Shown here: positions 16,909 to 37,900 of the stretch, piece by piece | How the letters are laid out: each line of letters starts with the position of its first letter | How positions within the stretch are numbered: position 1 is the first letter of the stretch | NCBI RefSeq assembly: GCF_002278135.3 | Contig: NZ_CP029425.2 | Location: 620,001-684,000 of the forward strand | DNA: 64,000 nucleotides | Reading direction: 5' to 3' | Source of the DNA: Bradyrhizobium ottawaense | Lineage (GTDB): Bacteria > Pseudomonadota > Alphaproteobacteria > Rhizobiales > Xanthobacteraceae | Program-made: the position numbers and the translations under genes | Notes under the pieces: generated by a model | The model's database searches: none | Told to the model about the DNA's origin: nothing | Seen by the model: only the letters and a program-made list of their open reading frames with translations

Positions 16909-18287
16909 TCGGCGGCTTCCTGGAATGTAGTCTGTGGCTGCAATTCCGAGGAGAGCGAGGTTAGCCCTTCGATCTTCAAGGTGATGTCGAGCTTCTCCGC
17001 CCCAAGATCGATTCGCTCCACAAGCAGTTCAATGACGCGGGCCTGCTCGGCAGGAAAAAGCTCGTTCCAGAGCTCGTCAAACCCGAAGAGCGCGTTGCGG
17101 ACCTCGGTCTCGCTGATGTCAATCCGCTGCTTGCGCAAAGCGCTCCAAGTCTGGACGATGATTTCCGGCGTTTGCAAAAGCAAGCGAACTTGGTCGACAA
17201 TGATCCGCTCGAGTTCGGCCGCGGGTGCCAATTTGACCGGGCAATCCGATCGACCGTGCTTCATTGCCGTTTGGCTGATGTAGTAGCGATAGAGGCGACC
17301 AGACTTGCGGGTGTGTGTCGGCGACATCGCGGCGCCGTCGGGCCCAAACAGCACACCTTTCAGGAGTGCGGGGGTCTGCGCGCGGGCGTTGCCGGCACGT
17401 TTGCGCGGGCTTACCTTCAAAATGGCATGGACCTGATCCCAGAGCTTGCGATCGATAATCGGCTCGTGTTCGCCGGGATACGCGGTGCCTTTGTGGACCG
17501 CTTCGCCAATGTACACGCGATTGTTGAGAATCTTGTAGAGGACGCCCTTGTCCAATACATGCCCATAACGATTCCGCTCGCCAGCTGCGACGAGTTCGCG
17601 GGCTAAGAGAGTTGCGGATTTGAGCTGCACGAACCGCCGAAAAATAGCTCTGACCCGTTCGGCATCGGCTTCGTGAATCAGCAACTTGCGGTCGCGGACT
17701 TCATAGCCGAGCGGCGTCCAGCCGCCCATCCACTTACCGCGCTTGCGAGAGGCCGCGACCTTGTCGCGGATCCGCTCGCCAATCAGTTCGCGCTCGAACT
17801 GGGCGAAAGTCACCAGGATGTTCAGCGCCATGCGGCCCATGGCATCCTTGGTGTTGAAGGATTGGGTGACGGACACAAAGGTCACCCCATAGCTTTCGAA
17901 CAATTCGACAAGGTTGAGGAAGTCGAGCATCGACCTCGAAAGCCGGTCGATCTTGTAGACAACAATGACGTCGATCCTGCCTGCTTTGACGTCTGTCAGA
18001 AGCCGCTTCAGCGCCGGTCTTTCGAGCGTGCCACCCGAGAAGCCACCGTCATCATAGCGATCCCGGACGGGTGTCCAACCCTCAGCTCGCTGGCTTGTGA
18101 TGTAGGCCTCGCAGGACTCTCGCTGCGCATCGAGCGAGTTGAAGTCCATGTCGAGACCTTCCTCGCTCGACTTGCGGGTATAGACCGCACAACGGACTTT
18201 TCGGGCCGAAGATCGGTCCAACCCTGATGGGTCGAACGAACTGGCGAATGGCCTCGCCTGGCGCTTTGGCGATTTACGGGAGGTCAT
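16905..18287 (-). CDS. Large serine recombinase, copy 1
   Basis: This 460-residue recombinase is of the large serine integrase type. The resolvase domain begins VRCAVYTRKSSEEG, with the catalytic Ser, and contains YDDGGFSGGTLERPALKRLL and VYKIDRLSRS. The recombinase domain includes WMGGWTPLGYEVRDRKL and ILNNRVYIGEAVHKGTAYPGEH, and the zinc-ribbon part starts near MSPTHTRKSGRLYRYY. I chose the ATG at 18287 because it overlaps the DUF2924 stop as ATGA; the frame upstream is shadow coding. The gene is probably the integrase of a prophage or integrative element whose remaining genes lie to the right. It appears intact. Confidence 0.92.
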   Translation of the reverse strand: MTSRKSPKRQARPFASSFDPSGLDRSSARKVRCAVYTRKSSEEGLDMDFNSLDAQRESCEAYITSQRAEGWTPVRDRYDDGGFSGGTLERPALKRLLTDVKAGRIDVIVVYKIDRLSRSMLDFLNLVELFESYGVTFVSVTQSFNTKDAMGRMALNILVTFAQFERELIGERIRDKVAASRKRGKWMGGWTPLGYEVRDRKLLIHEADAERVRAIFRRFVQLKSATLLARELVAAGERNRYGHVLDKGVLYKILNNRVYIGEAVHKGTAYPGEHEPIIDRKLWDQVHAILKVSPRKRAGNARAQTPALLKGVLFGPDGAAMSPTHTRKSGRLYRYYISQTAMKHGRSDCPVKLAPAAELERIIVDQVRLLLQTPEIIVQTWSALRKQRIDISETEVRNALFGFDELWNELFPAEQARVIELLVERIDLGAEKLDITLKIEGLTSLSSELQPQTTFQEAAE

Positions 18288-18727
18288 TTGCTCAGCGAAT
18301 TCTTCAGCCCGAAAAAGACCCAACCATTCCATTTCGTGCCCGTGATCTGACGGGCGACCGAGGACAGGGACTTGTAGGGACGCCCGAGATACTCGAAATC
18401 GTCGTGGCGAACGGTGACGCAGTGCTCCACGCCCTCCCATTCGCGGATCAGCTTCGTGCCGGCGACCGGTCGCAAAAGCGGTCGAGCCTTGCGGTCCGCC
18501 GGCTTCTGGTCGGCATATTGCTTGGCCATGGCTTTGAGCCGCGCGGTGGTTTCCCGGCTCAGGCCGCCATAGGCCAATTCTTGAATACGGTAGGCCAACC
18601 GGCTCTCAAGGAAGCGGCGGTTATAGGCCGGCGGCTCGGTATCAAATAGTTCGCGCCAGCGGGCCTTCAGTACGGGGGCAGCGGCGCCTTTAAGGGCGGC
18701 CAATTGCGCCAGCATGGACGATTTCAT
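18284..18727 (-). CDS. DUF2924 protein, copy 1
   Basis: This 147-residue DUF2924 protein starts at the ATG at 18727 (MKSSMLAQLAALKGAA). Characteristic residues are LKARWRELFDTEPPAYNRRF, LESRLAYRIQELAYGG, and the C-terminal GRPYKSLSSVARQITGTKWNG, which resembles the fold of SWI/SNF-linked DUF2924/DUF4357 modules. It overlaps both the small gene upstream and the recombinase downstream by four bases. Members are almost always found beside large serine recombinases in alphaproteobacteria, so a DNA-binding accessory role is inferred. Confidence 0.88.
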   Translation of the reverse strand: MKSSMLAQLAALKGAAAPVLKARWRELFDTEPPAYNRRFLESRLAYRIQELAYGGLSRETTARLKAMAKQYADQKPADRKARPLLRPVAGTKLIREWEGVEHCVTVRHDDFEYLGRPYKSLSSVARQITGTKWNGWVFFGLKNSLSK

Positions 18728-21137: not shown

Positions 21138-22463
21138 GTGCCCGATGACATGGCAATGTGCAAAAGGCCGAGACAAGACATGACACACGCGACGTACCCA
21201 GAAGAAGCGAACGCACGACTTCAAATCGAATACTGGCCGCTTGATCGGCTGATCCCCTACGCGCGCAATGCGCGCACCCATAGTCCGGCCCAGGTCGCCG
21301 AGATCGCCGGCAGCATTCGCGCCTTTGGCTTTTCGAATCCGATCCTCGTCAGCGAAGACGCAGATATCATCGCGGGACACGGCCGGCTGGCCGCTGCTCG
21401 CAAGCTTGGACTGAAGGAGGCGCCGGTCGTGGTCCTCCGAGGATTGACGGAGGTGCAACGCCGCCAGTTGGTGCTTGCCGACAATAGGATTGCGCTAAAT
21501 TCAGGTTGGGACAGCAAGATGCTCAACCTCGAACTGGCTGACCTGTCTGCGTTGGGTGCCGATCTCGCATCCATTGGATTCAGCAAAAAGGAGTTGGCGG
21601 CAGCGCTGTCAAGGGTCGAGAGCGGCTTAACGGACGAGAACGATACCCCCTCTATCGTCGAGGCCGCGGTCTCCGGACCCGGTGACATCTGGCAGCTCGG
21701 CCCTCATCGCGTTGCGTGCGGCGATAGTCGAGATGCAGCTCTCGTCCACTCGCTGCTGGCTGGTGCTTTGCCTCAATTGATGGTCACCGATCCGCCCTAT
21801 GGCGTCGAGTACGACCCGGAATGGCGTCATCGCCGCGGCGTCAACAATTCGAAGCGTACAGGCAAAATTCGCAACGACGAGATCGCCGACTGGGCGCCTA
21901 CCTGGGGCTTATATCCAGGCGAAATCGCTTATGTTTGGCATGGTGCTTTACGGTCGACCATCGTAGCCGAAAGCCTTCTAAAGAGCGGCTTTTCGATTCG
22001 CGCGCAGATCATCTGGGCCAAGGAGCGCTTGGTCATGAGCCAGGGAGACTATCACTGGCAGCATGAGCCCTGTTGGTATGCGGTCCGGAAGAAGGGCAAC
22101 TGGACTGGCGATCGCAAGCAAACCACCGTCTGGAATATCAGCAGCCGTGGGCAGGATGCCGAAACCAAGCATTCGACCCAAAAGCCAGTCGAATGCATGC
22201 GCCGGCCAATGCTGAACAATTCGAGTTCCGGACAGGCGGTATATGAACCCTTCCTTGGAAGCGGAACGACCCTGATCGCGGCGCAATCATGTGGGCGCAT
22301 CTGCTTGGCATCCGAGATCGATCCATTGTTCGTCGATGTCGCGATTCGCCGATGGCAGGCCTTCACAGGTGAGAAGGCAATTCGTGAACGAGATGGCGCG
22401 TTCTTTGAAACGCTGGAGCAGGGGACGCAATCCGCGGGTGACGCTCGTGATCCGCTGGTGTGA
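21138..22463 (+). CDS. ParB-domain DNA methyltransferase
   Basis: This 441-residue protein has two domains. Residues 30-120 are a ParB/sulfiredoxin-like N domain (LIPYARNARTHSPAQVAEIAGS, IIAGHGRLAAARKLG). Residues 185-420 are an N6-adenine or N4-cytosine methyltransferase with the beta-class order: catalytic DPPYG near 215, then FLGSGTT near 365 for AdoMet binding. Such fusions are common in phages and integrative elements, where they may protect the DNA or act at replication. The start is uncertain: GTG at 21138 has the best ribosome site, with ATG at 21150 or 21180 as alternatives. Its stop overlaps the terminase gene by four bases. Confidence 0.88.
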   Translation: MPDDMAMCKRPRQDMTHATYPEEANARLQIEYWPLDRLIPYARNARTHSPAQVAEIAGSIRAFGFSNPILVSEDADIIAGHGRLAAARKLGLKEAPVVVLRGLTEVQRRQLVLADNRIALNSGWDSKMLNLELADLSALGADLASIGFSKKELAAALSRVESGLTDENDTPSIVEAAVSGPGDIWQLGPHRVACGDSRDAALVHSLLAGALPQLMVTDPPYGVEYDPEWRHRRGVNNSKRTGKIRNDEIADWAPTWGLYPGEIAYVWHGALRSTIVAESLLKSGFSIRAQIIWAKERLVMSQGDYHWQHEPCWYAVRKKGNWTGDRKQTTVWNISSRGQDAETKHSTQKPVECMRRPMLNNSSSGQAVYEPFLGSGTTLIAAQSCGRICLASEIDPLFVDVAIRRWQAFTGEKAIRERDGAFFETLEQGTQSAGDARDPLV

Positions 22464-22933
22464 TCGGAACGGACATGCGTGGCCGTCGTCCAAAACCAAC
22501 AAGGATCAAGGCTTTGACGGGAAATCCGGGGAAGCGTCCCCTCAATGTGCACGAGCCGCGGCCTGAACCCGCGCTACCTGAGTGCCCACCGGAACTCAAT
22601 TCGGTTGCCAAGCGTGAATGGGCGCGGCTGACCGGCGAGCTTTCAAAACTCGGTCTCATAACTCACCTCGATCGCGGCGCGCTAGCTACCTACTGCGGCG
22701 CTTACGCGATGTGGGCAGAAGCGATGGAGCAGATCCAGAAGTTCGGTACGATGGTCAAATCACCGACAGGATATCCGATACAGTCACCCTACCTAGCAAT
22801 TGCCAATCGACAGGCGGAGATCATGATGCGCATCGCGTCGGAGTTCGGTTTCACGCCTGCAAGCCGGAGTCGGATATCCTTGCCCCCGCAAGATCAGCTA
22901 CCACTTTTTGATGGGGAGGATGGAGAGATCTGA
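22460..22933 (+). CDS. Phage terminase small subunit, P27 family
   Basis: This 157-residue protein matches the P27 small terminase family. It has the RGRRPKPTRIKALTGNPGKRPL start, AKREWARLTGELSKLGLI, the core helices around AALATYCGAYAMWAEA, and SPYLAIANRQAEIMMRIASEFG. Small terminases recognise phage DNA for packaging and need a large ATPase-nuclease subunit. None follows: the next gene, 79 bases on, is a helicase. The prophage is therefore cut off here. Confidence 0.88.
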   Translation: MIGTDMRGRRPKPTRIKALTGNPGKRPLNVHEPRPEPALPECPPELNSVAKREWARLTGELSKLGLITHLDRGALATYCGAYAMWAEAMEQIQKFGTMVKSPTGYPIQSPYLAIANRQAEIMMRIASEFGFTPASRSRISLPPQDQLPLFDGEDGEI

Positions 22934-23012: not shown

Positions 23013-25046
23013 ATGGTCGCATATGCGAGCTATACGGCTCAAGAATTTCTCACTTCGCCGGACGACGCAATCTTCGCCCGCCTGGTTCGAAGTGATGCAG
23101 TTTCTGGGTTCAGCCAGTTCTCTCATAAACAAGGATGGTCGTGGGGTGAAGCCGTTCGGCTTATGAAATCGGCTTGCGAACAGCTCATCGCCACTAACAT
23201 ACGATACTCCGATGTCGGCGTCGTCTTAGAATACCGCATCCCCCGCCGAGAAAAGCGGTTGGATGCTGCCTTCCTATTTGGCGAAACAATCGCAGTTGTT
23301 GAGTTTAAAGCAGGGAGTTCCTCCGCGACGAGCGACGCTTTGGCTCAAGTCGCCGACTATTGTCTCGATCTGGCCTACTATCACGCGGAAAGCCAAGGGC
23401 TGAAGATTGTTCCCATCGTGTGCTCAACGGAGGCCCAGTCCAGCCAGGTGGTGCCGACATCCGATGCGACGTTGATTGAGGACACACAGTGCGTCGGGGA
23501 AGCCGATTTCGCAGCGCTGCTAACTCGCATCGCGAACGACGACAGGAAAAGGCCTTCGGATAATATTTCGCGCGAACGGTGGTGCTCGAGTTCCTATCGT
23601 CCGATTCCTGGAGTCATCGAGACCACGGTGAGTTTGTTCAACAAGCACGGCTCAGACGACATCAGCGCCGCGCTGGCCGATCGCGATACGATCGATCGCT
23701 CCATGCACGCTATTGAGGGTATCGCGCGAGAGTCTCGCGAGCGGAGCCAAAAGACTTTGTGCCTTCTCACGGGCGTTCCTGGCGCCGGTAAGACGCTTAC
23801 CGGACTTCGTATCGCGCATAGCCCGGCCTTTCTTCAGGCGGGTTGGCGGAGCGTCTTCCTGTCAGGAAACGGTCCACTGTTGAAGGTCTTAAAAGCCGCT
23901 TTGGCGGCAGACTATAAAGATCGTCAAGGCTGCACTAAAGCTATCGCGCAGCGACATGCCGAATCATTGCTCCATAGCGTGCATGCATACCTTGCCGAAG
24001 CGCAAAAGACCCAATCGCCGCCGTCAGAGAGCATTGTAATTTTTGACGAAGCGCAGCGCGCCTGGGATGCAGCCAAGATGCAGAAGATGGCGGCGCGACA
24101 GCGCAGCTTCGGTGCCGTGTCTGAATTGTCCTCACCTGTTACGGCGACTTCCGAACCGGCTCAGATTCTGGAAGTAATGAACCGCCATGCGGGCGGCGTC
24201 ATGGTCGTGGCTCTCTGCGGAAGCGGGCAAGAGATCCATGATGGGGAAGCTGGCGTTGGAGAATGGATTGCCGCGCGAAATCAGTCCTATGCTAACTGGC
24301 GGCTCATTTGTAGCCCTTCCGCAATCGAGCGAGCGGGTGTCGACGCCGCAGGTGCGAACGCGGAGGTGTGGCCGAGTATGCATCTGAGTAGCTCAATCCG
24401 CAGCCATCGTGCGTTGGAGCATGCTGACTGGGTTGATGCTGTACTGACGGGACGTCCCAAAGATGCGCGCCGCCACATAGATCATATCGGTTTCCCGATA
24501 GCCCTCGTCAGGCGCCCGGATGATGCCAGGGCGTGGTTACGCAAGACGACCCTCGGCTCCAGGCGCTTCGGCTTGGTCGCAAGTTCGGGCTGTTCTCGCT
24601 TGAGGCCATATGGGCTCGAAGTTTCGGCCGGGTTCAGGAAGGAATTGGACTACGCTGAGTGGTTCACCGCGCCGCGAGGTGATTTGCGATCGTCATTTGC
24701 ATTGGAGACCGCGGCAACGGAATTCGAGTGCCAGGGCCTCGAGTTGGACAGGGTGGCCGTTTGCTGGGGGTGGGACCTAACCGTTGGCGATGGTGAACTC
24801 CTGCCGCGGACGTTCCGCGGGACCAACTGGACCAACGTGAGGCGGCCGAGGGAGCGTGAGTACACGATCAACAAGTATCGTGTTCTTCTGACCAGGGCAC
24901 GTGAGGGCATGGTGATTTGGGTGCCTATGGGAGATGAGGAGGACCCGACCAGATCGCCGTTCGAGATGGACCGGCTGGCTGATTACCTGGTCGATTGTGG
25001 CGTGCAGCCTATTCGGCAGTCGGTCGACGGCTCACTTCTTCCATAA
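23013..25046 (+). CDS. PD-(D/E)XK nuclease-DUF2075 helicase fusion
   Basis: This 677-residue protein joins an N-terminal nuclease-like domain to a DUF2075/Schlafen-type helicase. Residues 65-130 read VLEYRIPRREKRLDAAFLFG and AVVEFKAG, a D...ExK arrangement. The helicase has Walker A GVPGAGKT near residue 255, Walker B IVIFDEAQRAWD near 343, an ATATEFECQGLELD-type motif (AATEFECQGLELDRV), and motif VI in NKYRVLLTRAREGM. Proteins of this build are seen in defence islands and probably process invading nucleic acid. Its stop TAA is the TAA inside the TTCCATAAC junction motif. It appears intact. Confidence 0.85.
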   Translation: MVAYASYTAQEFLTSPDDAIFARLVRSDAVSGFSQFSHKQGWSWGEAVRLMKSACEQLIATNIRYSDVGVVLEYRIPRREKRLDAAFLFGETIAVVEFKAGSSSATSDALAQVADYCLDLAYYHAESQGLKIVPIVCSTEAQSSQVVPTSDATLIEDTQCVGEADFAALLTRIANDDRKRPSDNISRERWCSSSYRPIPGVIETTVSLFNKHGSDDISAALADRDTIDRSMHAIEGIARESRERSQKTLCLLTGVPGAGKTLTGLRIAHSPAFLQAGWRSVFLSGNGPLLKVLKAALAADYKDRQGCTKAIAQRHAESLLHSVHAYLAEAQKTQSPPSESIVIFDEAQRAWDAAKMQKMAARQRSFGAVSELSSPVTATSEPAQILEVMNRHAGGVMVVALCGSGQEIHDGEAGVGEWIAARNQSYANWRLICSPSAIERAGVDAAGANAEVWPSMHLSSSIRSHRALEHADWVDAVLTGRPKDARRHIDHIGFPIALVRRPDDARAWLRKTTLGSRRFGLVASSGCSRLRPYGLEVSAGFRKELDYAEWFTAPRGDLRSSFALETAATEFECQGLELDRVAVCWGWDLTVGDGELLPRTFRGTNWTNVRRPREREYTINKYRVLLTRAREGMVIWVPMGDEEDPTRSPFEMDRLADYLVDCGVQPIRQSVDGSLLP

Positions 25047-25350: not shown

Positions 25351-26583
25351 TCAATGCGCAATCGCGAGCGTACCCGGCGTTGGCCGGACAACGGGCGGCG
25401 CCGGCTTGGGTGATGAGGAAGGTGCCCGTGGTAGCAGGGATATGGGCGCAGGATATGCCGCACGACGTGGGGCCACCGGAGCGACAGGCGCACGGGGCGT
25501 AACGCCTGGTGCCGGAGCGGGAGGGGGCGGCGCAATGCTCGCAGTGGCCTCATGGGCGCTCGACTTCCGGAGTCGAATTTCAATACGCCGTCGCTGCTGG
25601 ATGCTCGCGGGTATTCCTTCAGTCGCCAAGGTCTCGTCAGTATTCACGAGTTGAGCGCCTGAGAGTGGCAGGATCTTGTAGTTCGCAAGCTCCGCGTTTT
25701 GCTTGAGGACGCTCACGACTGCTACAGCGCGAGCCAAGCCGAGGCCGGCGTTGTCTGCCGGGATGAGTTTTCCGACGTCCGCCTTGCCTTTCAAGACCGG
25801 GAGCAGATCCCGGTCCAGATTGGACTGATGTACACCAAGGGGCTGCTCGTCGGTGTGACCGACCACCTCGACGACATCCACATCGTACTGTTTGATGTAC
25901 TCAAGAACCTTGGCTGGTATTTTGGTCAGAAGGCTTTCACGGAAAGGTGCGGAAAGATCAGCGCTGCCGCTCTTGAAGAAATTGCCGTCGGCCTCGCTGA
26001 GGCTGATGATCGGCGGCCACAGATGGCCGGCCGAGCCTCCTGCCGTGGTAGTACGGTTGAGCGCGTCGATGATGGACTTTGTTGATAGAGGAGGCTCGCC
26101 CGGTTTGGCTAGCGCACGGCTGATTGCCGCCATAGCGCTTGCATCCGTGACCGCTTTGTCGACATCGATGCCGTTGGCATTGAGTGTTTTGACCTGCTCA
26201 ATACGGTCGCGGAGCTCCTTTAGCGTCAGACCGGACTTTTGGAGTTCGTCGGCGGTTGCGCGGCCTTCAACCAACTCCCGCCAGTACTGATCGATTGCTT
26301 GAGGATTGCCGCTTCCGGCAATAGCCTTGAGCTTTTCGACGAGCGCCTCATTCTTGCTCAGCGTCTGAACCAGGTCCTGACTGCGTTGATTATCGGCAAG
26401 CAGCTGCTCGATGCGCTTGTCCGCCGCAGCGCGCTTCTCCTGCTCCTTCAGGATGAAGGTCGCCATCGCCATGAGCAGGCAGAACACCAGGAGAAGCATG
26501 ATCTCCGCCATCGTCAGGCCGAGGACCAAGCCTTGCCGGTACGAGGAACCCTGCCTGGTGATCTGGCCGTTCAAGACTGACAT
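25351..26583 (-). CDS. MotB/ZorB-like protein with OmpA domain
   Basis: This 410-residue inner-membrane protein resembles the stator B subunit of MotAB and ZorAB. Its single N-terminal helix, GLTMAEIMLLLVFCLLMAMAT (about residues 23-44), has a Glu where MotB, ExbD and ZorB carry the proton-binding Asp. A coiled region follows (residues 45-200). Then comes an OmpA/MotB peptidoglycan-binding domain: VVEVVGHTDEQPLG, LGLARAVAVVSVLK, ILPLSGAQ, RRRIEIRLRK. A Pro/Ala-rich tail of about 55 residues comes after the domain, which is unusual. It is the last gene of a five-gene operon, 9 bases after the MotA-like gene. The stator role is inferred from fold and pairing. Confidence 0.82.
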   Translation of the reverse strand: MSVLNGQITRQGSSYRQGLVLGLTMAEIMLLLVFCLLMAMATFILKEQEKRAAADKRIEQLLADNQRSQDLVQTLSKNEALVEKLKAIAGSGNPQAIDQYWRELVEGRATADELQKSGLTLKELRDRIEQVKTLNANGIDVDKAVTDASAMAAISRALAKPGEPPLSTKSIIDALNRTTTAGGSAGHLWPPIISLSEADGNFFKSGSADLSAPFRESLLTKIPAKVLEYIKQYDVDVVEVVGHTDEQPLGVHQSNLDRDLLPVLKGKADVGKLIPADNAGLGLARAVAVVSVLKQNAELANYKILPLSGAQLVNTDETLATEGIPASIQQRRRIEIRLRKSSAHEATASIAPPPPAPAPGVTPRAPVAPVAPRRAAYPAPISLLPRAPSSSPKPAPPVVRPTPGTLAIAH

Positions 26584-26592
26584 GGTTGCCGC

Positions 26593-27612
26593 CTAGGTGT
26601 TGTGCCCCCGGCCGGCCCAGGGGCCGGTCGCATACCGCTCCGCATTCTCCGCGCGGATTTCATTCATCAGGCCATTTAGCGCTGCCGCAAGAGCCTGCGT
26701 CTGCCGCAGGTTCTCATCCATTGCCTTTGCCTGTGTCTCGGCACTCTTGTTAAACGAATTTACGGCGCGCGAAAGGCCTTGGATCATCGGCGCGAGCTTG
26801 ATTTCGATAATCTGCTCGGGCGTCTGCAGTGACGTCAACTTGCCGACGACGGTGTCGATGGCCTTGATCATGGCTGCCGTGCTTTTAGATAGCCGATCCC
26901 CTTGCTCTTCCAGCTGCTTGGACATAGCCTCGAACGTTCTCGTGGCGTGGCTGTTCATCATATTGAGAGCTTCGCCGGAACGCTTCGACGCATCTTCAAG
27001 AGGCTGGCGGGCAGTAACGGCGAAATCCTTGATCTCGCCCGCCAGCTCTTTACGGGTCTCCCCAAGCGTCTCTTTCAGCTCATCGAGCGCATCGCCCAAG
27101 GATTGCTGGGTCATCCTGCGAAAGGAGCTGAACTCAAGGATGGTGCTCTCAAGCTCGACTTTCACCTTGCGGGAGGCCTCGGCAAGCTCCAGGCGCGCCG
27201 TCGCCTCAACTTCGATCGGGTCGCGGCGCATCTGATTGAAGAAGATGCGAAGAGCGACGCCGGCAATCGTCGAGGCGATGGCGATGCCGAAATTCTTGAC
27301 GATCTGCTCGGATCCCCCCTCGGGGGAGAACTGATAGAGCGACACGCCGAGGCTGGTCAGGGTGAACAGGAAGCCCATATAGTACAGATTATCGCCGGAC
27401 TGGTCGTCTCGCAGGCGAAAGAGCCGCGCTAGTCCGAGAAGGAGCGCGTACCCGATCATGATCAGGACCGGCACTGTCGTCACCAACTGAGGGGCGAAGT
27501 CGTGCAGCTTTGAAAAGACAATGTATCCGCTGCCTGCCAGCACCACCGCGAAGAACAACAAGCCGCTCAGCAAGCCTGGTGGCAAAAGCCTGTCCTTATT
27601 GTCGACCGCCAT
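26593..27612 (-). CDS. MotA/ZorA-like membrane protein
   Basis: This 339-residue protein has four predicted membrane helices (about residues 15-34, 40-62, 77-96 and 104-125) followed by a long helical cytoplasmic tail. The last helix, NFGIAIASTIAGVALRIFF, has the small and hydroxyl residues typical of the pore helices of MotA/TolQ/ExbB and ZorA. In known pairs such residues face the acidic residue of the B subunit. The tail (130-339) is rich in Glu, Lys and Ala and looks coiled-coil, like the ZorA tail, though shorter. It sits 3 bases after the VWA-like gene and 9 bases before the MotB-like gene. Direct homology to ZorA is likely but should be tested by structure. Confidence 0.75.
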   Translation of the reverse strand: MAVDNKDRLLPPGLLSGLLFFAVVLAGSGYIVFSKLHDFAPQLVTTVPVLIMIGYALLLGLARLFRLRDDQSGDNLYYMGFLFTLTSLGVSLYQFSPEGGSEQIVKNFGIAIASTIAGVALRIFFNQMRRDPIEVEATARLELAEASRKVKVELESTILEFSSFRRMTQQSLGDALDELKETLGETRKELAGEIKDFAVTARQPLEDASKRSGEALNMMNSHATRTFEAMSKQLEEQGDRLSKSTAAMIKAIDTVVGKLTSLQTPEQIIEIKLAPMIQGLSRAVNSFNKSAETQAKAMDENLRQTQALAAALNGLMNEIRAENAERYATGPWAGRGHNT

Positions 27613-27615
27613 CAG

Positions 27616-28452
27616 CTATGCTCCCTGCAGGCGCTTGAGGCTGCCGACCAGACCGCGATTGTCAGAGATCCATTCTCGCCAGAATCCCATGAGCTGCGTG
27701 TCATCCACAACCGGTTTGCCGTTGATCTGGCGGCTGACTAGCCGCACGAAGACCGTCGCATCATGAAGCTCGGTCCGGTACTTCAGGTACGCGGGAGATT
27801 GCCTAAAGCGTTGATAGGACAGGTCGCCGGATCGGGGATACTGGCTGTAGTCCTTTGTGGACTCAATCATGTCGGAGATGACGTAGAGCGTTTTCTTGAT
27901 GTTTTGCCTGGCGGTCCCGGAAAACTCGCTGATCGCGATATCCTGGATCGCACCCATGATCGGCGAGGCGGAGGCCCGGGCCGGCGTGACGCTCTTGTCG
28001 ATCGCCTCTAGTGCGGGCTTGCGGAAACTCTCGATCCAGCGCTGACGCGCCACCTCGATATTGTTGGTCCACTCGCTCAGGCCCGCCCCGTTGCCGGGAT
28101 TGCACTTGGCGAACAGCGAGCGGCTGCGCAGACCGCCGACATCTAGCACCCGGATATCGAGCTTGTGGTACGGCGGCAGCGTGGTGACGATCTCCTCCAG
28201 AAGTCCGAGAACCTCGCGCCGGGTGGCGTCAGGCAGATCATCCGACGTGTCGATCAAGACGACCGTAACGCCGCGAGGCCCATCGACTGGGCATAGGGTC
28301 TGTTCTGCGACAGTCGGTGGCCGCTCGGTGAAGAACGCGAAATAGGCCAACCCCGCCCCACACGAGACCGCAACCAGAAAAAGAACGATACCGAGGTATC
28401 CTGCCCAACCGATGCCGGGCGAGCTGCGCCGCCTGGGTCTGGGTCTAGCCAC
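27616..28452 (-). CDS. Membrane-anchored VWA-like protein
   Basis: This 278-residue protein has a basic N terminus (RPRPRRRSSPG), one membrane helix (GYLGIVLFLVAVSCGAGLAY), and an exported domain resembling von Willebrand factor A. VTVVLIDTSDDLP gives the DxSxS-like metal site, SPIMGAIQDIA the second loop, and TLYVISDMIEST the third. Four cysteines are visible. I chose the GTG at 28452 because it overlaps the upstream stop by eight bases; the frame upstream is shadow coding. The VWA fold suggests metal-dependent protein binding in the periplasm. No such subunit is part of described Zorya systems that I know of. Confidence 0.68.
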   Translation of the reverse strand: MARPRPRRRSSPGIGWAGYLGIVLFLVAVSCGAGLAYFAFFTERPPTVAEQTLCPVDGPRGVTVVLIDTSDDLPDATRREVLGLLEEIVTTLPPYHKLDIRVLDVGGLRSRSLFAKCNPGNGAGLSEWTNNIEVARQRWIESFRKPALEAIDKSVTPARASASPIMGAIQDIAISEFSGTARQNIKKTLYVISDMIESTKDYSQYPRSGDLSYQRFRQSPAYLKYRTELHDATVFVRLVSRQINGKPVVDDTQLMGFWREWISDNRGLVGSLKRLQGA

Positions 28453-29899
28453 TCTTGTTGCCCTTCTCCGGAAAGAACTGGTCGATTTCGCGGTATGACC
28501 GCATCGCCCGCTCGAAGGCCTCATTTATGGCATTAATCTGGTCCTTCAACAGACCTTGGGTCTCCTCGATCATTTGGCGAAGCCGATCGCGCGCGGTCGA
28601 GTCGGGCTCGGCGTTTGCATAAACGATGCGCTCCAGGACGAACGGTCTGCTAAATGAGGCAGGGGGAGGAGTTGATCGGGCCTTACGGTTCGCCTCGCGG
28701 TACAGGCCCAACAGTGTGCGGCCGGCCATCTCAATCTGGTTTTGCTGCTGAACGAAGCGCTGATTGAGTCGGCTGCGGCCCTGGAGAATCGAATCGTATT
28801 CGGCTCGCCGCTTTGAAAGGTCGGTCGACGCCGCGTTCATGACGTCGGTGGCATCCTGCCGGATGTCTCTGAGCCGCTCGATCAGGTCGCTCTTGAGATC
28901 CGTGAACTGCTTGCTGGCGTCGTTCCAGCGTCGCTCAAGGCCAGCATAGCCGATGTAAGGATCAAAGAACGTAAGACCGTCCGCCATCGCGACCAGCGAG
29001 AAAACCAGGCCGATGCTGATGAACACCCATGAATTGACGTCGGTCAGATCGAAAGGCGCCGTCAGGAGGCGGTGCAAGACATCTTGGCCGACGTCGCCGC
29101 CCAGGTTTGGCTTCATTTCGCGCAGATGCGCGAGGGTTAGGTTCAGCGTACCCGCGAAGGCGAGGTAGCCGACAAAGAAGATCGCGCCGATCAGCTTGAG
29201 CAAAAAATTGCGGTGGAAGATCGGCCTGATAAGGACCAAGCCCCACAGGAAGCTCGCAAGGATGTTCAGGGCGGCAAAGGTTGCCGCCTGGATCGCCGCG
29301 CCGATATAGCCGCCCATGTTGGCCTTTGCCAAGAAGCCCGCGTTGACGGCGACTTCGATGACAAAAAGAATGGCGAGCAATCCAACCTTCAGGATGATCT
29401 TTCCCGGAGTTGCCAGCCGGGCAGGCCGCTGCAGGCGGTGCCGCTTGCGGAACGCTTCACGCTCCAACTCGGATTCATGGAGGCGGCGGCGGTGGACGAA
29501 CAGCTCGTCACGTCCCATGGTCGCTTCCGCTTCGAAATCGCCGACGGCTTCCGGCGCGGTCTGCTGGATGATCGCGAAGCGTTCCTCGAAGCTGAGCGAG
29601 GTCAGCCGTTCGTCGTAGGTATGCAGATGATCCTGATAGACCGAATGGGAATCCTGTTTGTGGGCCTCTACCCGTTCGATGATGAGGTGCTCGACGTCGT
29701 CCAGGGTTTGCTCGTCCGCTCCGGGCCGGTTCTGCGAACCGCGCTCCTTGCCGAGATTGATGAGCCTTAGCTCGTCCGCGACGCGGTCGACGTTCAGATC
29801 GACGAAGACGGTTGTGGCCGGATGATAGTCGTGCGGCGGCTTGTTAAGCACGGCCCATAGCCGCGCGATAGGGGAAAGCCGGGTCTGGGAGCGGTCCAT
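28445..29899 (-). CDS. Four-helix membrane protein with coiled-coil ends
   Basis: This 484-residue protein from the ATG at 29899 has a soluble N-terminal region (residues 1-160, charged, coiled-coil-like). Four membrane helices follow (about 168-192, 200-225, 234-260 and 288-312), then a long coiled C-terminal region (DASKQFTDLKSDLIERLRDI, QQQNQIEMAGRTLL). I find no known domain. The layout, with a helix bundle and long soluble helices, looks like a scaffold or signalling component rather than a transporter. It starts 12 bases after the SNase stop and overlaps the VWA-like gene by eight bases, so all five genes are transcribed together. Confidence 0.7.
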   Translation of the reverse strand: MDRSQTRLSPIARLWAVLNKPPHDYHPATTVFVDLNVDRVADELRLINLGKERGSQNRPGADEQTLDDVEHLIIERVEAHKQDSHSVYQDHLHTYDERLTSLSFEERFAIIQQTAPEAVGDFEAEATMGRDELFVHRRRLHESELEREAFRKRHRLQRPARLATPGKIILKVGLLAILFVIEVAVNAGFLAKANMGGYIGAAIQAATFAALNILASFLWGLVLIRPIFHRNFLLKLIGAIFFVGYLAFAGTLNLTLAHLREMKPNLGGDVGQDVLHRLLTAPFDLTDVNSWVFISIGLVFSLVAMADGLTFFDPYIGYAGLERRWNDASKQFTDLKSDLIERLRDIRQDATDVMNAASTDLSKRRAEYDSILQGRSRLNQRFVQQQNQIEMAGRTLLGLYREANRKARSTPPPASFSRPFVLERIVYANAEPDSTARDRLRQMIEETQGLLKDQINAINEAFERAMRSYREIDQFFPEKGNKSG

Positions 29900-29911
29900 T
29901 GTGGTTCGCAA

Positions 29912-30640
29912 CTAAAGCTTCGATTTACGGCAGCCGGCGGCCTGTGCTTCGGCCTCTGTGCAGAACCAGCGGTGCGACGAGCTCGGCTGCATGTTCAGCC
30001 GGTCGTAAAAGCGGCCGCCCGGGACGTGATATATGCATTGCGGCGCGCTGCTCAAATTACCTTTTATCAAACAATTGCCGGAAGGCGGCGCCGGATTAGC
30101 TGTCGAATTTGAGATCAAGGCGCGCTGGGCCATGGTGGGGACGGTAAGTGCACCCATTATTACCGTCAAATTGCTGCGATGGCGCCAATCCCACGGCGCG
30201 ATGAACGCGCCGCTCCAAAGCCCGCGCTGATGTTCGCGTGCCAAATCTTCGTTGGCCACGTACTCCGTGGAATATCTTCGAAACGCCAGAGCCCAGCCGT
30301 TCTGGACAAGCCAGCGCGATACGTTCTCGCCCCCGACCGTGCAGGAACCCAAGGATCGCCTGTAGATGTCCGTGCCTGTCAGCTCGCAAGACCACTCGCG
30401 GTCTTTGCTGAAGGTCCGCAGCCGCTCCCGCGCTTCGATGCCGCATGTCCATGTCTTGCCCGCAGCATCGAGGCAGACCTGATCAGTCTCCGGAGCGTCG
30501 ATACCGTTGAACCGGATCTTGGTCTGGCCGATGTAAACGGTATCTGCATCGACGATTTGCGGTACGCCGCGCACCTGCCCGGCGCATGCGGCATGCACGC
30601 TGATCAGGAAAAGGGCCGCGACAGCCAGCCAACACCGCAA
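29912..30640 (-). CDS. Exported SNase-type thermonuclease
   Basis: This 242-residue protein is a secreted staphylococcal nuclease-like enzyme, which cleaves DNA and RNA with Ca2+. The best start is TTG at 30640: it follows AAAGGGGGGAT, a strong ribosome site, and begins a clean signal peptide (LRCWLAVAALFLISVHAACA). The SNase domain shows VDADTVYIGQTKIRFNGIDAPE with the catalytic Arg and acidic residues, then YRRSLGSC with the second Arg, and REHQRGLWSG. The C-terminal 70 residues hold four cysteines and no known domain. It is the first gene of the operon and probably acts in the periplasm. A decayed SNase piece lies at 54.1 kb. Confidence 0.85.
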   Translation of the reverse strand: MRCWLAVAALFLISVHAACAGQVRGVPQIVDADTVYIGQTKIRFNGIDAPETDQVCLDAAGKTWTCGIEARERLRTFSKDREWSCELTGTDIYRRSLGSCTVGGENVSRWLVQNGWALAFRRYSTEYVANEDLAREHQRGLWSGAFIAPWDWRHRSNLTVIMGALTVPTMAQRALISNSTANPAPPSGNCLIKGNLSSAPQCIYHVPGGRFYDRLNMQPSSSHRWFCTEAEAQAAGCRKSKL

Positions 30641-31012: not shown

Positions 31013-31058
31013 GAGGGTGGACAGCCCGGCCTCGACTCTGTCACAACATCTCGTTGTC

Positions 31059-33419
31059 ATGGGAGCGTCAGAAAATCCGATGGATGGGCAACCAATAAAC
31101 GATCGGCTTTTTGCGGATCTTCATCAAATCAAAGATCGGTGCCAGGCCTCGGGCGACATAATCACGACCGAACAGCACGACCAATACATTCACACTTTCA
31201 GCGAGCGATTTGGTCCGGACGTACTTCGCGGTTTGGACGGCGAAGCGTTGTTGCTGGCGATGCACGGTCGCCGTGACAGTGACGCGCGCTGCCTGAGTTA
31301 TTGGTTAGAGTTCAAGAATGACGAAACGTTCGTAACAAACGCATTTGGCGGCATTGGCGGAGGGGCGGCACTAAAATTTGGTGTGTATCAAAGACCAACG
31401 GATGGAGCCTGGATTGGAGGCAAAGGGACAAGCCCGAAGGCGATCGGCATGGACGAAGCGATCCAGATCGCGCGTCGCCAACGTGACGAATTGATTGCCG
31501 GAGATAGGGTGTTGAGCTCTCTGACTTCGATCGACCACTCCGACGAAGTTTACAATCAGTTGCAAGGGCTGATAGAGGCCGCCGCACCGGATCTAGCCCG
31601 CGATGGCTGGGCGCATAAATACTGGTTCTTGGCGCATCCCGACAAGCTAGATGACTATCATAGCCCACGTTACCAGCGATTTCATCTCTACAAGCTGCTG
31701 CAGATGCCGCCGGACCAGGCGGGCATACTCGACGCGGGAGCACCACGATTCCTCTGCGCCGGTCGGTTTGTATCCATTGCTCGGCGTCTAGGCGTTCCGG
31801 TTAGCGTGTTGACTTCGGCATTAAATAAAAGAACGGGCGGATTTCATCGGTACTGGCGAATTGGTACGACCGAAGGAAGCTCCGGTGATAGCCAGTGGTC
31901 TCCGATGCGCGACGGCAATTACGTTTCCATCGGCTGGCCAGATACGGTCCCCGACCTTTCTTCTTACATTGGAGAAGAAAAGGTCACCCTCAAAGATCGG
32001 ATAACGGAGTGGTTGATTCCTGCTTATGCAAATTCCGGAGTAGCTTCTCGGAAAGCGGGCGAGATCGTTAAGTTCGCCCGTGACATGGCAGAAAATGATC
32101 TCATCCTCGCATGCGAAGGGCAGACGGTTCTCGGCATAGGACGGGTTATTGGGCCCTATGAATATGAGGGCGGCCTCCGATTCCCCCATAAACGTCCAGT
32201 TAAGTGGCTACTGCTTGATTCCTGGCAGCTGCCTCAGTCTGAGGGGCCGCGCACCACGGTTTATGAGTTGGGCAAGAACGGCGAGAACTTGCTCGCACTT
32301 GAACGTAGACTGTTTGATGGTGGAACTGGCTCATCTGGTGTCCCCGAGACTCGCAATCGGACAACCGTCAGTGTTACGCCACTGCCTGAGCTAGATTCGT
32401 TCGCGGCAAGAATAGACGGCATCTTGCGCCGGAAGGGGCAAGTGCTGCTCTATGGTCCGCCCGGCACAGGAAAAACTTATCTTGCGCATCGAGTAGCAAA
32501 CGATCTCGCCGCGCGGCAATCATTCCGTAAGCCTTACTCCCAGCTTTCAGAAGCAGAACGGGTGCAAGTTTCTGGTCCACAAGGCTTAGTGAGAACGTGC
32601 ACCTTTCATCCTGGTTACAGCTATGAAGATTTCATAGAAGGATTTCGTCCGAACACTGTTGCTGGACAAATGGTCTTTGAACGACATGCGGGAATCTTCA
32701 AGCAATTGTGTGCTGAGGCTGAGAAGGCCGGCGACAAGCACTTCTTTCTCATCGTTGATGAGGTAAATAGGGGTGACGTGCCTAGAATCTTTGGCGAGCT
32801 GATAACACTGCTCGAACATGACAAGCGAGACAAACCCGTTACGCTTGCGAGCGGTACAAGTTTCTGCGTTCCGTCGAACGTTTTCATTGTTGGCACTATG
32901 AATACAGCGGATCGGTCGATTTCGTTACTCGACATAGCTTTGAGAAGGCGCTTTGGGTTTGTTGAGCTGATGCCTGACAGCTCCCTTCTCGACAAACGAG
33001 CGGTCGGCGATCTGCCTCTCGGCGCTTGGCTTGACACGCTCAATTCACGGTTGCGCAGGCACCTGAAGCGAGACGCACGAAATCTTCAGATTGGTCACGC
33101 CTATTTGCTAGGTCACCCGATCACATCCGTAGCGGAGTTCTCGCGTGTGCTTCGGGAGGACATCATCCCGCTCGTCGAGGAGTATTGTTACGATGATTTT
33201 GGTACATTGAGTGAGATACTGGGGCCAGGCCTTGTCGACGTTAAAGGTGGGCGTATTCGGGATGAAATTTTCGATCCGAAGAATGAGGATAGTCTGGTTC
33301 AGGCTCTTACTTACGAAGAAATGACGCTTACCCTAGTTCAGAAGGGTGATCAGAATACCGATGCGGAAGATGCGGTTGAATTGACTTCCGACGAAGTAGA
33401 CGATGCTGAAGCGTCTTGA
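31059..33419 (+). CDS. mcrB: McrB-like restriction GTPase with EVE-like domain
   Basis: This is the AAA+ subunit of a type IV (modified-DNA) restriction enzyme. The AAA core has Walker A GPPGTGKTYLAH near residue 480 of the longest frame, FFLIVDEVNRGDVPRIFGEL as Walker B, and NTADRSISLLDIALRRRF, the McrB signature. Before it, residues 300-400 form an EVE/PUA-like domain (NYVSIGWPDT, GQTVLGIGRVIGPYEY, RPVKWLLLD), which in this family can read modified bases. The first 250 residues form a domain I do not recognise (YWLEFKNDETF, FGGIGGGAALKFGVYQ). The start is uncertain: GTG 31017, ATG 31059 or ATG 31080. It overlaps the mcrC frame by 17 bases. Confidence 0.88.
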   Translation: MGASENPMDGQPINDRLFADLHQIKDRCQASGDIITTEQHDQYIHTFSERFGPDVLRGLDGEALLLAMHGRRDSDARCLSYWLEFKNDETFVTNAFGGIGGGAALKFGVYQRPTDGAWIGGKGTSPKAIGMDEAIQIARRQRDELIAGDRVLSSLTSIDHSDEVYNQLQGLIEAAAPDLARDGWAHKYWFLAHPDKLDDYHSPRYQRFHLYKLLQMPPDQAGILDAGAPRFLCAGRFVSIARRLGVPVSVLTSALNKRTGGFHRYWRIGTTEGSSGDSQWSPMRDGNYVSIGWPDTVPDLSSYIGEEKVTLKDRITEWLIPAYANSGVASRKAGEIVKFARDMAENDLILACEGQTVLGIGRVIGPYEYEGGLRFPHKRPVKWLLLDSWQLPQSEGPRTTVYELGKNGENLLALERRLFDGGTGSSGVPETRNRTTVSVTPLPELDSFAARIDGILRRKGQVLLYGPPGTGKTYLAHRVANDLAARQSFRKPYSQLSEAERVQVSGPQGLVRTCTFHPGYSYEDFIEGFRPNTVAGQMVFERHAGIFKQLCAEAEKAGDKHFFLIVDEVNRGDVPRIFGELITLLEHDKRDKPVTLASGTSFCVPSNVFIVGTMNTADRSISLLDIALRRRFGFVELMPDSSLLDKRAVGDLPLGAWLDTLNSRLRRHLKRDARNLQIGHAYLLGHPITSVAEFSRVLREDIIPLVEEYCYDDFGTLSEILGPGLVDVKGGRIRDEIFDPKNEDSLVQALTYEEMTLTLVQKGDQNTDAEDAVELTSDEVDDAEAS

Positions 33420-34719
33420 TCCTTGCAGGAATATTGAGCCTATCGTGATGAACGAATGGGCTTCTTGTGACCCGACCTCGCGCCCTCAACTCATGGGCAC
33501 GACATTCAGAAGTAACCCAGAGGCTCAAAAAACAGCGGACGTGCTTCGAAGCTGCGTCGATATTCGAGAAGGATACAGAGGGCTCGAAGTATCGACTACA
33601 TCTTTCGTGGGGCACGTAGCTGTAGGGCCACTTCGGATTACGATCAATCCAAAGATATCAGGTACACCCCTCGCAACGCTTCTTCAGTATGCCTATGGAC
33701 TGCGCGACCTACGAATGCTCGGAGATGCAGTCGCCCCCACCGCAAAGTTAGGATTCCGCGATATTCTGATTGCCTTACTCGTAGCAGAAATTGAGGAGTT
33801 ATCGCGCTCGGGCCTGCTGCGGCGGTACATTCCCGTTTCAGAGAAGCTGACAAGTCCTAGGGGACGTATCCTTGTTGGAAGCATAGCATCCCGCGGCGGT
33901 ATCATCGATGGATCGGTGCCCTGCCGGCATTTTCATCGTCATTCCAATTGGAAGCTGAATCAAGTTCTTCGGTCTGGGCTCGAGCTTGCTGGAAGCATGA
34001 CAGCAGACCGCGAATTATATTTGCGTGTTAGGAGGGGGATCGACGCGTTCCATGAGGTGGAAGCACGACCAAGCCTGCACCAAAGGGATCTCGATGAGGT
34101 CGAGCGTGGGCTGACGCGTCTTACCGCAACGAGTAAGCCTGCCTTGCGTCTTATCCGGCTGCTCCTGGAAATGCATGGCACTTCATTTGATGTCGTTGCG
34201 CCTGCCCATCTTATTTCCGGTTTTCTTTTCGACATGAACCGTTTCTTTCAACTTCTACTGTCACGATTCTTAGGCGAAAATCTCGTGGACGAGTCCATTC
34301 GGGATGAGTATGTCGCTAAAGACGTTTTCGCATATGCGGCTCATGGAAATCCCAGGGGGCGGCCTCTGCCTCGGCCGCGACCAGACTTTGCCCTGTTCAG
34401 AGCTAAAAAGTTGGTTGGATTCCTCGACGCGAAATACCGCGACATTTGGCAGAAGGGGTATCCCGCTGAGTGGCTCTACCAGCTGTCCGTGTACGCGTTA
34501 GCGTCTCCAAATCAGCAGAGCATTATTCTGTATGCGACGACATCTCCGGAAGCGCGCGACGAGCGGATTGACATTCGTCATCATTCGCTCGGAAGTGCGG
34601 GATCTGTAGTCATGCGCCCTGTAGAGCTGCAAACGCTTGCCTGTCTGGTATCATCCTCCGAGTCTCCGCTGGCGCGTAAGCAGCGCACCGCTTTCGCTCG
34701 GTCTCTGATTGCCTTTTAG
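33403..34719 (+). CDS. mcrC: McrC-like nuclease subunit
   Basis: This 438-residue protein is the nuclease partner of McrB. It carries the McrBC 5-methylcytosine restriction domain: LEVSTTSFVGHVAVGPLRITINPKI, the LLQYAYGL pattern, and the PD-(D/E)XK site PRPDFALFRAKK ... GFLDAKYRDIW near residues 325-350, with the Gln-rich tail helices of the family. The catalytic Asp, Asp and Lys are present. It begins inside the last codons of McrB, so translation is coupled. It is probably a complete pair. Confidence 0.9.
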   Translation: MLKRLDPCRNIEPIVMNEWASCDPTSRPQLMGTTFRSNPEAQKTADVLRSCVDIREGYRGLEVSTTSFVGHVAVGPLRITINPKISGTPLATLLQYAYGLRDLRMLGDAVAPTAKLGFRDILIALLVAEIEELSRSGLLRRYIPVSEKLTSPRGRILVGSIASRGGIIDGSVPCRHFHRHSNWKLNQVLRSGLELAGSMTADRELYLRVRRGIDAFHEVEARPSLHQRDLDEVERGLTRLTATSKPALRLIRLLLEMHGTSFDVVAPAHLISGFLFDMNRFFQLLLSRFLGENLVDESIRDEYVAKDVFAYAAHGNPRGRPLPRPRPDFALFRAKKLVGFLDAKYRDIWQKGYPAEWLYQLSVYALASPNQQSIILYATTSPEARDERIDIRHHSLGSAGSVVMRPVELQTLACLVSSSESPLARKQRTAFARSLIAF

Positions 34720-34745: not shown

Positions 34746-34911
34746 ATCGGATGTGCGAACGCGCGGCTGTCCCTGTCGACACCCTCGCTGGCACGCCGCT
34801 GCGTTCGGCGGTTGCGGCCCGGACGCGAAGCTCTTTCGCGTTCGTTCGAAGGCCTGTATCGTTGTTGCGGAAGCCGTGTCCCCAGGGCCCGGCGGCATTC
34901 TCGGGGGATGG

Positions 34912-37900
34912 ATGCAGAAGAACGGTGCGGCGATCGTCTTCAGCGCTGGCGACCTCATTGGGCATCTGAATTGTCATTACCTCACACACCTCGACCTTAA
35001 GGTCGCCGAGGGCGAACTTGCCAAGCCAAAGCTCCGCGATGACCCGGCCCTCGATGCCCTGGTGGAGCGCGGCAAGATCCATGAGCAGGGTTTTGTCGAC
35101 CATCTCGCCAAGCAGGGCGGGACCGTCGCCGCCATTGCCGGCGTTGGCATCGATTACGCCTCGGTTGTCCAGACGCGGCAGGCGATGGCGCGCGGCGACG
35201 CGGTGATCGTTCAGGCGGCTTTACGGGATGAGAATTGGAGCGGCCGAGCCGACGTGCTGCGTCGGGTCGAGAGCCCGAGCGGTTTGGGTGCCTGGTCATA
35301 CGAGGTTACCGACACTAAATTGGCTCGCGAAACAAAGGGCAACACGGTCCTGCAGCTGAGCCTCTACTCGGATCTATTGGCGACCATGCAGCAGAAGGTC
35401 CCGGAGACCGCCCATGTCGTGACGCCCGGGACGGAGTACCTGCCGGAGGCCTACCGCGTGGCCGATTTTGCGGCGTTCTATCGACGCATCAGGCGAAGCC
35501 TGGAGACATTTGCGGCTTCGCCTCTGCATGACAGTCTCTATCCCAACCCGATCGAGCACTGCGAGGTCTGCCGATGGCGTGAGCCCTGTGCTTCGAGGCG
35601 GCGCGCTGACGATCACCTTTCGCTTGTCGCAGGAATCACCAAGACCCAGATTGAGGAACTGGCCCGGCGAGGCGTGGGCACCATGGCCGCCCTTGCCACG
35701 CTGCCCATCCCGCTGCAATGGCGGCCTGATCGGGGCAGTGCGCCAAGCTACGAGAGGGTGCGCGAACAAGCCAGACTCCAGGTTGAAGGCCGCGGAGGGG
35801 GCCGGCTCCTTCACGAGGTGCTACCGCAGGTGCCGGAATTTGGTTTGTTCCGGCTGCCCGAGCCTTCGGCCGGCGACATCTTCTTCGATTTCGAGGGCGA
35901 TCCGTTCGTGGACGGCGGCGGGCTCGAGTTCCTGTTCGGCTATCTCTATGCCAACGACGCCGGCATGGAAGCCTATGTCGGCGACTGGGTCACGACACGG
36001 CAGCACGAACGGGCGGCGTTCGAACGTTTCATCGACTTCGTCACTGAGCGGCTGGCCAAGCACCCTGGCTTGCACATCTATCACTTCGCCCCCTATGAGC
36101 CAGCCGCGTTGAAGCGCCTGATGGGACGGTACGCGACGCGCGAGGACGAGGTCGACAACCTGCTTCGGGCCGGCGTGTTCGTGGACTTGTACGCCATTGT
36201 CCGGCAAAGCATCCGCGCCAGCGTCGAAAGTTACTCGATTAAGAAGCTGGAGCCGCTGTACGGGTTTGACCGCACCGTCCCGCTGATCGATGTCGGCGGC
36301 GCCATGGCGCGGGTGCAGGCCTGCCTCGAATTGGCCGACGCCGGCGGAATTGACGCGGGGGATCGGGTCGCCATCATCGGTTACAACCGCGACGACTGCG
36401 CCTCGACGCGCGCTTTGCGGGACTGGCTTGAGGGGGTGCGCGGCGGGCTAATCGCGCAAGGGAAGGCGATCGATCGGCCGCAGCCGAAGGCTGCCGAGAT
36501 CGGCGAGGATCTAAGCGCTTGGAAACGCCGGGTCGCTGGGCTTGTGTCCAGGTTGACCAGCGACGTTCCGGACGATGTGGCCGAGCGCAGCGCAGAGCAG
36601 CTGGCCCGTTGGTTACTGGCTCATTTGATCGATTTCTTCGGCCGCGAGAACAAGGCGGTGTGGTGGGAGTACTTTCGGCTGAGTGACTTGTCAGCGGAGG
36701 ATCTCTTGTATGAGCGCGCCGGACTAGGAGGGCTGACGTTTCTCGGCAGTTTTGGTGGGACCCTGAAGGCTCCGATCCACCGCTACAAGTTCACGGTCCA
36801 GGAGACCGACGTTCGTGCAGACGACGATTTGAAAAGTGTTGGCGGCGACAAGCTTGGCAAGGTCGTCGCGATTTGCATTGATAACAGGACGATCGACATT
36901 AAAAAACGCCAGGACTCGGCAGGCGTTCATCCCGAAGCTGCGTTCGCACACAAGTTCGTCGATAACCAAGTTCTCGCAGAATCGATCTTCAGGATCGGAG
37001 AATATGTGGCCGATCATGGGATCATTGGGCCGGGCGCATATCGTGCTGCTCGCGACTTGGTGCTCAAAGTCGCTCCAAGAATTCGTGGGCAGCAGTTGGA
37101 GCAGCCTGGCGAGCCGCTGCTGGCGGCCGCGATGCGCGCCGCGCTTTCACTTGATCAGAGCGTCTTTCCGGTGCAAGGGCCGCCTGGGGCAGGCAAGACC
37201 CATGCCGGCGCGCGCATGATCTGTGCGCTCGTGCGCGACAACCGGACAGTCGGCGTAACGGCCAATAGCCATAAGGTCATTCGCCACTTGCTCGATAAGT
37301 CGCTGGAGGCGGCTGCCGAGCAGAAATTGGTAACTCAATGCATTCAAAAAGTCAGCGATGAGCCGGCATCTCTGCCAGGACTTCAACTGACTACCAAGAG
37401 TCCAGAGTTTATCGACGGGCTCGGTAATGGCTACCAGGTTGGTGGTGCTACCAGCTGGTTTTGGGCGCGTCCGGATGCGGCGGGCATTGTAGATGTTCTG
37501 TTCGTCGACGAAGCAGCGCAGATGTCGCTAGCAAACGTGTTAGCCGTGTCGCAGGCGGCCGAGAGCATTGTCCTCCTCGGCGATCCAAGGCAGCTTGAGC
37601 AGCCGATGCAAGGGAGTCATCCGGATGGCGTTGCGACATCGGCGCTTGACCACGTCCTGGGTGAGCACGCAACGATCGAGGCTGGCCGTGGGCTTTTCCT
37701 TGGAGAAACCTGGCGCTTGCACCCCGATATCTGTGCCTTCACGTCCGAGCTGTTCTATGAGGAGCGCCTCCGCTCGCGACCCGGCTTGGAGCGGCAGGAA
37801 ATCAGGTCATCGAGCCGAGTGAATGGGTCCGGCCTTCGCTATCTTGCCGTGCAGCATGAGGGTAACCAGAATTCCTCTCCCCAAGAGGCAGACGAGATCA

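Follow-up and report, generated by a model that had tools for sequence, protein, structure and literature searches.

What system is encoded by five closely packed genes of Bradyrhizobium ottawaense whose products combine a putative membrane motor with a nuclease? The genes lie on the minus strand of a 64,000-nucleotide (nt) stretch (bases 620001-684000 of the 8.6-Mb contig NZ_CP029425.2), hereafter the window. We found that four of them form a core recurring in fixed order: a four-helix membrane protein, an anchored VWA protein, a MotA-like subunit (A) and an OmpA-type subunit (B). The remaining gene, encoding an exported SNase-type nuclease, is a swappable module and not a fixed fifth gene. 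On balance we are inclined to read the whole as an anti-invader system.

The order four-helix, VWA, A, B was identical at all 28 loci examined, and since this order is kept throughout, the grouping is more than chance. These loci are the window, L005-L010, L012-L014, L052, L055-L066 and L069-L073, of which L072 and L073 are close relatives. Three further loci at contig edges (L011, L067, L068) and three that duplicate counted ones (L051, L053 and L054, the same loci as L005, L009 and L010) were excluded. The core is found in other alphaproteobacteria, often near antiviral genes and sometimes plasmid-borne. Apart from the core and the nuclease, clustering of shared neighbours at 29 loci yielded little: genes resembling serine recombinases (5 loci), and groups of ABC-ATPase or regulator type; in the same clustering no immunity gene recurred next to the core, nor did any uptake or transport partner except generic ATPases.

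In the window the five genes run co-directionally from 30640 to 25351 in the order SNase, four-helix, VWA, A, B (Table 1). The spacing, read 5′ to 3′, is a 12-nt gap, an 8-nt overlap, a 3-nt gap and a 9-nt gap, which bears out the tight co-oriented arrangement described in an initial annotation of this DNA. That annotation also read the anatomy of the proteins correctly (VWA-like protein, four-helix protein, SNase with signal peptide, OmpA-type B). The SNase gene has a TTG start preceded by a G-rich stretch, and for the VWA gene a GTG start was chosen; a longer ATG start at 28524 would fall within the preceding gene. Pfam recognised the SNase (2.8e-11) and, below its cut-off, the OmpA domain of B (3.3e-4), and gave no match above cut-off for the four-helix, VWA and A proteins. 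By hydropathy, B and the VWA protein have a single helix each and the four-helix protein has four; for A three were indicated, against four in the predicted model.

The position of the nuclease differed from locus to locus. It lay directly upstream of the core at nine of the 28 loci (the window, L005, L006, L007, L009, L012, L052, L055, L056), adjacent downstream at two (L013, L062) and in convergent orientation one gene away at one (L061). At five loci (L059, L064, L066, L070, L071) an SNase domain is fused to the C-terminus of B, and at one (L069) a GmrSD_C-type HNH domain occupies that place. Pfam found SNase in all five SNase fusions, together with OmpA in four of them, and OmpA plus GmrSD_C in L069. 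Mapped on a tree of 30 loci, the fused state implies three changes or more. Among the matches listed, with the query's own entry included, a search restricted to the stator portion of the L069 B subunit returned GmrSD_C in 50/120 and SNase in 3/120, and the L059 protein returned SNase in 7/120. No nuclease was present at the remaining 10/28 loci, so that the SNase, which had been taken for a regular fifth gene, proved to be movable. At one of these ten, L063, an SNase remnant matching only at its C-terminal end persists upstream of the core (7145-7420).

The SNase of the window is a predicted nuclease with an SNase-family fold and catalytic residues, and its sunset domain was matched at 3.1e-10. 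The presumed active-site residues (D-x-D-T, R, D-x-P-E, R) are identical in 17/17 nucleases, separate and fused. Because the fused nucleases follow the wall-binding domain of B, which lies outside the membrane, the nuclease should lie outside it too, presumably in the periplasm.

Subunit B is predicted to carry a wall-binding domain, as a profile of 27 B subunits matched solved MotB-type domains including a ZorB (PA0833-PD, 1.9e-9; MotS, 8.2e-9; ZorB 8vvi_A, 1.1e-6; PomB, 1.2e-6). Its N-terminal helix was aligned by eye with two ZorB-like proteins of the same class to place Glu27. As the initial annotation had noted, Glu replaces the usual Asp: it was found in 27/27 aligned proteins and, among 240 further homologues, in 233 of the 234 in which the motif could be located, the other having Gln. 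Glu27 and the polar pore-helix residues T84, S87 and T115 are invariant. Four distant B subunits (L060:8371-9432, L062:10507-11397, L063:11063-12070, L065:10458-11612) keep the Glu helix and end in a different domain with a PSCW...CRF pattern, recognised by eye; no Pfam family matched the L060 protein.

For subunit A, the expected MotA/ExbB fold is supported, short of proof. A fold search with the monomer model revealed a resemblance to ZorA, MotA and ExbB with weak statistics; the Foldseek matches also included designed bundles, haemoglobins and ABC exporters, which we took as helical background. Sequence searches of the PDB with the A profile returned mostly coiled-coil matches, and the full profile aligned with ZorA through the coiled tails alone. 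When trimmed to its membrane part, the profile placed helix 3 on helix 3 of ZorA (10% probability, P 0.003, a weak match) and did not match ExbB/TolQ. A search of the host genome for PF01618 gave seven places, the A gene not among them.

The VWA fold was confirmed on the predicted model of the anchored protein (predicted local distance difference test score 83.9, predicted template modelling score 0.79), which returned VWA/I-domain matches; a PDB sequence search with the VWA profile gave nothing convincing, and the fold search decided instead. Comparison of the profile with one host VWA protein was unsuccessful. Residues C54, D68, D71, C117, S163, P164 and D194 are identical in 28/28 sequences, and the two invariant cysteines would fit a periplasmic disulfide. 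We read the metal-site residues D68, S/T70, S163 and D194 as kept in all 28; the full DxSxS...T...D site is not present in these sequences, as the final Ser of DxSxS is not kept. The membrane helix has no conserved His (at most 1/28 sequences in any helix column). The four-helix protein, found at 28/28 loci and aligned from 27, has four hydrophobic segments between residues 168 and 310, and its closest named relatives are from Bradyrhizobium (94% identity). It matched no family above cut-off in Pfam, PADLOC or NCBIfam, and a PDB sequence search gave no convincing relative.

With regard to genomic context, 143 flank proteins of 15 other loci were scanned with PADLOC at 1e-15. The controls were 208 proteins encoded in 20 regions elsewhere in these 15 genomes, at arbitrary round coordinates. 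Both sets exclude proteins above 1500 amino acids (aa) and open reading frames below 180 aa, and the flank set also excludes six operon SNases. Defence matches were found, among the matches listed, for 18/143 flank proteins against 1/208 controls (p 6e-7 by protein, although neighbours are not independent); by locus the figures are 5/15 and 1/20 (p 0.04). Twelve of the 18 were placed individually, and six (QatD, TerY, two AbiEii and two HerA) come from two tallies alone, one covering the first 25 of 39 families and the other all 25. Matches to mad2, mad3 and mad8 were left out of this count as unspecific; adding five mad3 matches in flanks and two mad matches in controls gives 23/143 against 3/208 (p 2.5e-7). 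The window operon itself sits within a defence and mobile island (10369-44422). The expectation that the genes recur near defence genes, and not in housekeeping loci alone, held.

Table 1. Features of the operon, its surroundings in the window, and defence matches near related loci and in control regions.
Feature	Location	Strand	Remarks
Exported SNase-type nuclease, 242 aa	29912..30640	-	Signal peptide, C-terminal sunset domain; movable effector module
Four-helix membrane protein, 484 aa	28445..29899	-	N- and C-terminal helical domains, presumably cytoplasmic; core
Anchored VWA protein, 278 aa	27616..28452	-	Single N-terminal helix behind Arg-rich start, presumably periplasmic; core
MotA/ExbB/ZorA-like subunit A, 339 aa	26593..27612	-	Four helices, then long helical tail; core
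MotB/ZorB-like subunit B, 410 aa	25351..26583	-	One N-terminal helix, OmpA-type wall-binding domain, Pro-rich tail; core
Glu27 codon, subunit B helix	26503..26505	-	Occupies place of Asp of MotB/ZorB
OmpA-type wall-binding domain, B residues 202-305	25669..25980	-	Pfam OmpA 3.3e-4 and profile matches
nSTAND3-Mrr protein	window 10369-12657		
SMC-like	window 13505-16042		
Serine recombinases	window 16905-18440 and 42833-44422		
ParB/N6-methylase	window 21138-22463		
Phage terminase small subunit	window 22460-22933		
PDC-S41 Schlafen-type helicase	window 23013-25046		PADLOC 4.3e-215
McrB/McrC	window 31017-34719		
TM0106-type, RecB-like nuclease-helicase	window 34753-38094		
HNH_2 protein	window 38331-39521		
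RepB	window 41077-41973		
QatA-D	flanks		PADLOC; A-C placed in L053
Restriction enzyme, methylase, helicase	L056 flank		PADLOC
PDC-M55C-like protein	L059 flank		PADLOC
STK_OB, PP2C, HNH	L062 flank		PADLOC
Cas10, Csm5, TerY	L065 flank		PADLOC; TerY by tally
AbiEii (two), HerA (two)	flanks		PADLOC tallies
AbiEi	control regions		Sole control match, PADLOC

The system is patchily distributed. With the genome of the window itself included, it was carried by 4/60 relatives, 16/248 genomes in the family (5 of them weak), 11/385 in the class and 13/398 in the phylum (5 of them weak). Plasmid records contained it in 24/72,556 cases, 11 of them conjugative, and at the search sensitivity used there were no hits in a phage collection (0/50,697). 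Eight of these plasmid loci were inspected, among which hidden Markov models found the core in 5/5 tested and the other three match the pattern by annotation. A thermonuclease gene lies near the core in six of the eight; the two without a nuclease (L119, L120) are located among metabolic genes. Plasmid pRL11 of Rhizobium johnstonii 3841 carries a native copy, with a thermonuclease gene (RL_RS31080 to RL_RS31100). Further genes were observed beside some of these copies. A DUF4041 (SNIPE-type) gene of Sinorhizobium fredii plasmid pSfreNXT3b adjoins the thermonuclease gene that accompanies the core there (L121:15986-17461), with a CHAT-domain gene on the opposite side. The same plasmid carries a second OmpA-family gene with a hypothetical partner (L122:26502-28623), perhaps another motor pair, with no match to the core profiles in the part scanned. 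On a Rhizobium leguminosarum TA1 plasmid an SH3-domain gene directly follows B (L125:14643-15401) and is a possible further partner.

The closest known system is Zorya, whose types I-III consist of ZorAB plus ZorCD, ZorE or ZorFG and couple an envelope-sited motor to nucleases acting inside the cell. Shared features are a B subunit that combines a wall-binding domain with a single helix bearing the acid, polar residues opposite the acid, a nuclease partner and a defence neighbourhood; the fold of A with its long tail is likely similar. However, subunit A scored 17.5 bits against the NCBIfam ZorA cut-off of 190, and its PADLOC ZorA match (3.9e-5) covers the tail region only. The pore-helix acid is Glu here and Asp in ZorB, a conservative change. 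None of the nine window proteins scanned matched the PADLOC models for ZorC-G, and ZorCD, ZorE and ZorFG were absent from the families listed for the 143 flank proteins (the first 25 of 39 in one tally, all 25 in the other). Moreover, the VWA and four-helix core genes are additions relative to Zorya, and the nuclease, often fused to B, is presumably periplasmic and so on the opposite side from the Zorya effectors. Because the system departs from Zorya in its family score, its pore acid, its partners and the compartment of its nuclease, we do not file it there; by these tests it is not a Zorya member, although it may work like one. Two genomes (G190, G072) carry this A subunit and a ZorA match elsewhere, above the cut-off in G190 and below it in G072; judging from these matches, Zorya and this system can coexist in one genome.

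Other known systems share single elements. A appears to resemble MotAB, ExbBD and TolQR proteins in fold, and B resembles them in its wall-binding domain, but the loop between helices 2 and 3 of A is short. Inner-membrane-tethered vWA proteins encoded beside 5:2-type motors, including two motor-coupled families, are described in the accessible parts of PMC12204202. As far as they are presented there, these force transducers share with our system a tethered VWA gene next to motor genes, but their vWA helix is the pore helix, whereas here a separate acid-bearing B is present at 28/28 loci, the VWA helix has no SHLS-type His site, and a nuclease and a four-helix protein are added. SNIPE, a membrane-bound DUF4041/GIY-YIG nuclease, shows that cutting DNA during injection is a workable strategy (PMC13190303, accessible portion). 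Judged on that portion, the idea of cutting at the point of entry is common to both, but the system described here is a multi-gene motor, and neither DUF4041 nor GIY-YIG was found in the Pfam scan of its five proteins. By title or abstract, no description of the five-gene set was found in the literature searched, in which subscription papers were mostly beyond reach.

We lean towards the view that the recurring core and its swappable nuclease act against invaders, in that an ion-driven stator would hold and switch a periplasmic nuclease and phage or plasmid DNA would be cut on entry. By analogy with ZorAB and MotAB, as covered in the accessible parts of PMC11890865, five A subunits would likely surround two wall-anchored B helices (5:2), with Glu27 as the ion-binding acid. 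B would be tethered to the wall, and the fusions suggest that it holds the nuclease in the periplasm. The VWA protein may be a periplasmic latch or sensor linking injection damage to the stator, and the four-helix protein a cytoplasmic coupling partner of the tail of A. Breaching of the wall by a phage tail or a conjugation channel would cause the stator to engage and to present the nuclease to the DNA in transit. In this scheme we infer protection, the 5:2 assembly, ion flow, export and topology. Where no nuclease lies nearby, as at ten loci, another effector would be needed, or one supplied in trans. An alternative that we consider unlikely is a divergent Zorya-like system signalling inward. 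There, A and B would respond to damage of the envelope by driving an effector in the cytoplasm, perhaps by way of the helical domains of the four-helix protein, and the periplasmic nuclease would be an add-on. The long, ZorA-like cytoplasmic tail of A and the defence neighbourhood are in keeping with this, as is a four-helix protein at every locus examined when the nuclease is missing from 10/28. However, no enzymatic family was found for the four-helix protein in Pfam, PADLOC or NCBIfam, and nucleases have repeatedly been joined to the outward-facing end of B.

Other 5:2 motors power nutrient import and envelope maintenance (PMC12204202, accessible parts), and some copies of the present system lie among metabolic genes. 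The nuclease might then be energised to scavenge or import external DNA, or the whole be an envelope-stress machine, which we think quite unlikely given the patchy spread (4/60 relatives and 11/385 genomes of the class), the enrichment of defence genes, the copies on conjugative plasmids and the lack of a recurrent uptake or transport partner other than generic ATPases among shared neighbours. The activated system could also harm its own cell, for instance by ion leak or cutting of host DNA, and population-wide immunity with host DNA damage is attributed to Zorya I and II in the accessible parts of PMC11890865. Such abortive infection appears very unlikely, because from outside the inner membrane a nuclease is poorly positioned to cut the chromosome, and no immunity gene recurs beside the core in the shared-neighbour clustering.

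If the anti-invader reading is true, the contribution of a defence stator, whether gating, moving or positioning the nuclease, would become directly testable, and rhizobia and their relatives would have an extra layer of defence against phages and conjugation. With the nuclease repeatedly fused to the wall-binding subunit, cutting would take place outside the cytoplasm, in a compartment whose DNA is by default foreign. More tentatively, and with rather less than even confidence, we propose that a wall-anchored, ion-driven motor bearing an interchangeable nuclease at the periplasmic surface of the inner membrane, and shredding invading DNA in the periplasm, would represent a new kind of prokaryotic immunity, one that may tell self from non-self by compartment and not by sequence.
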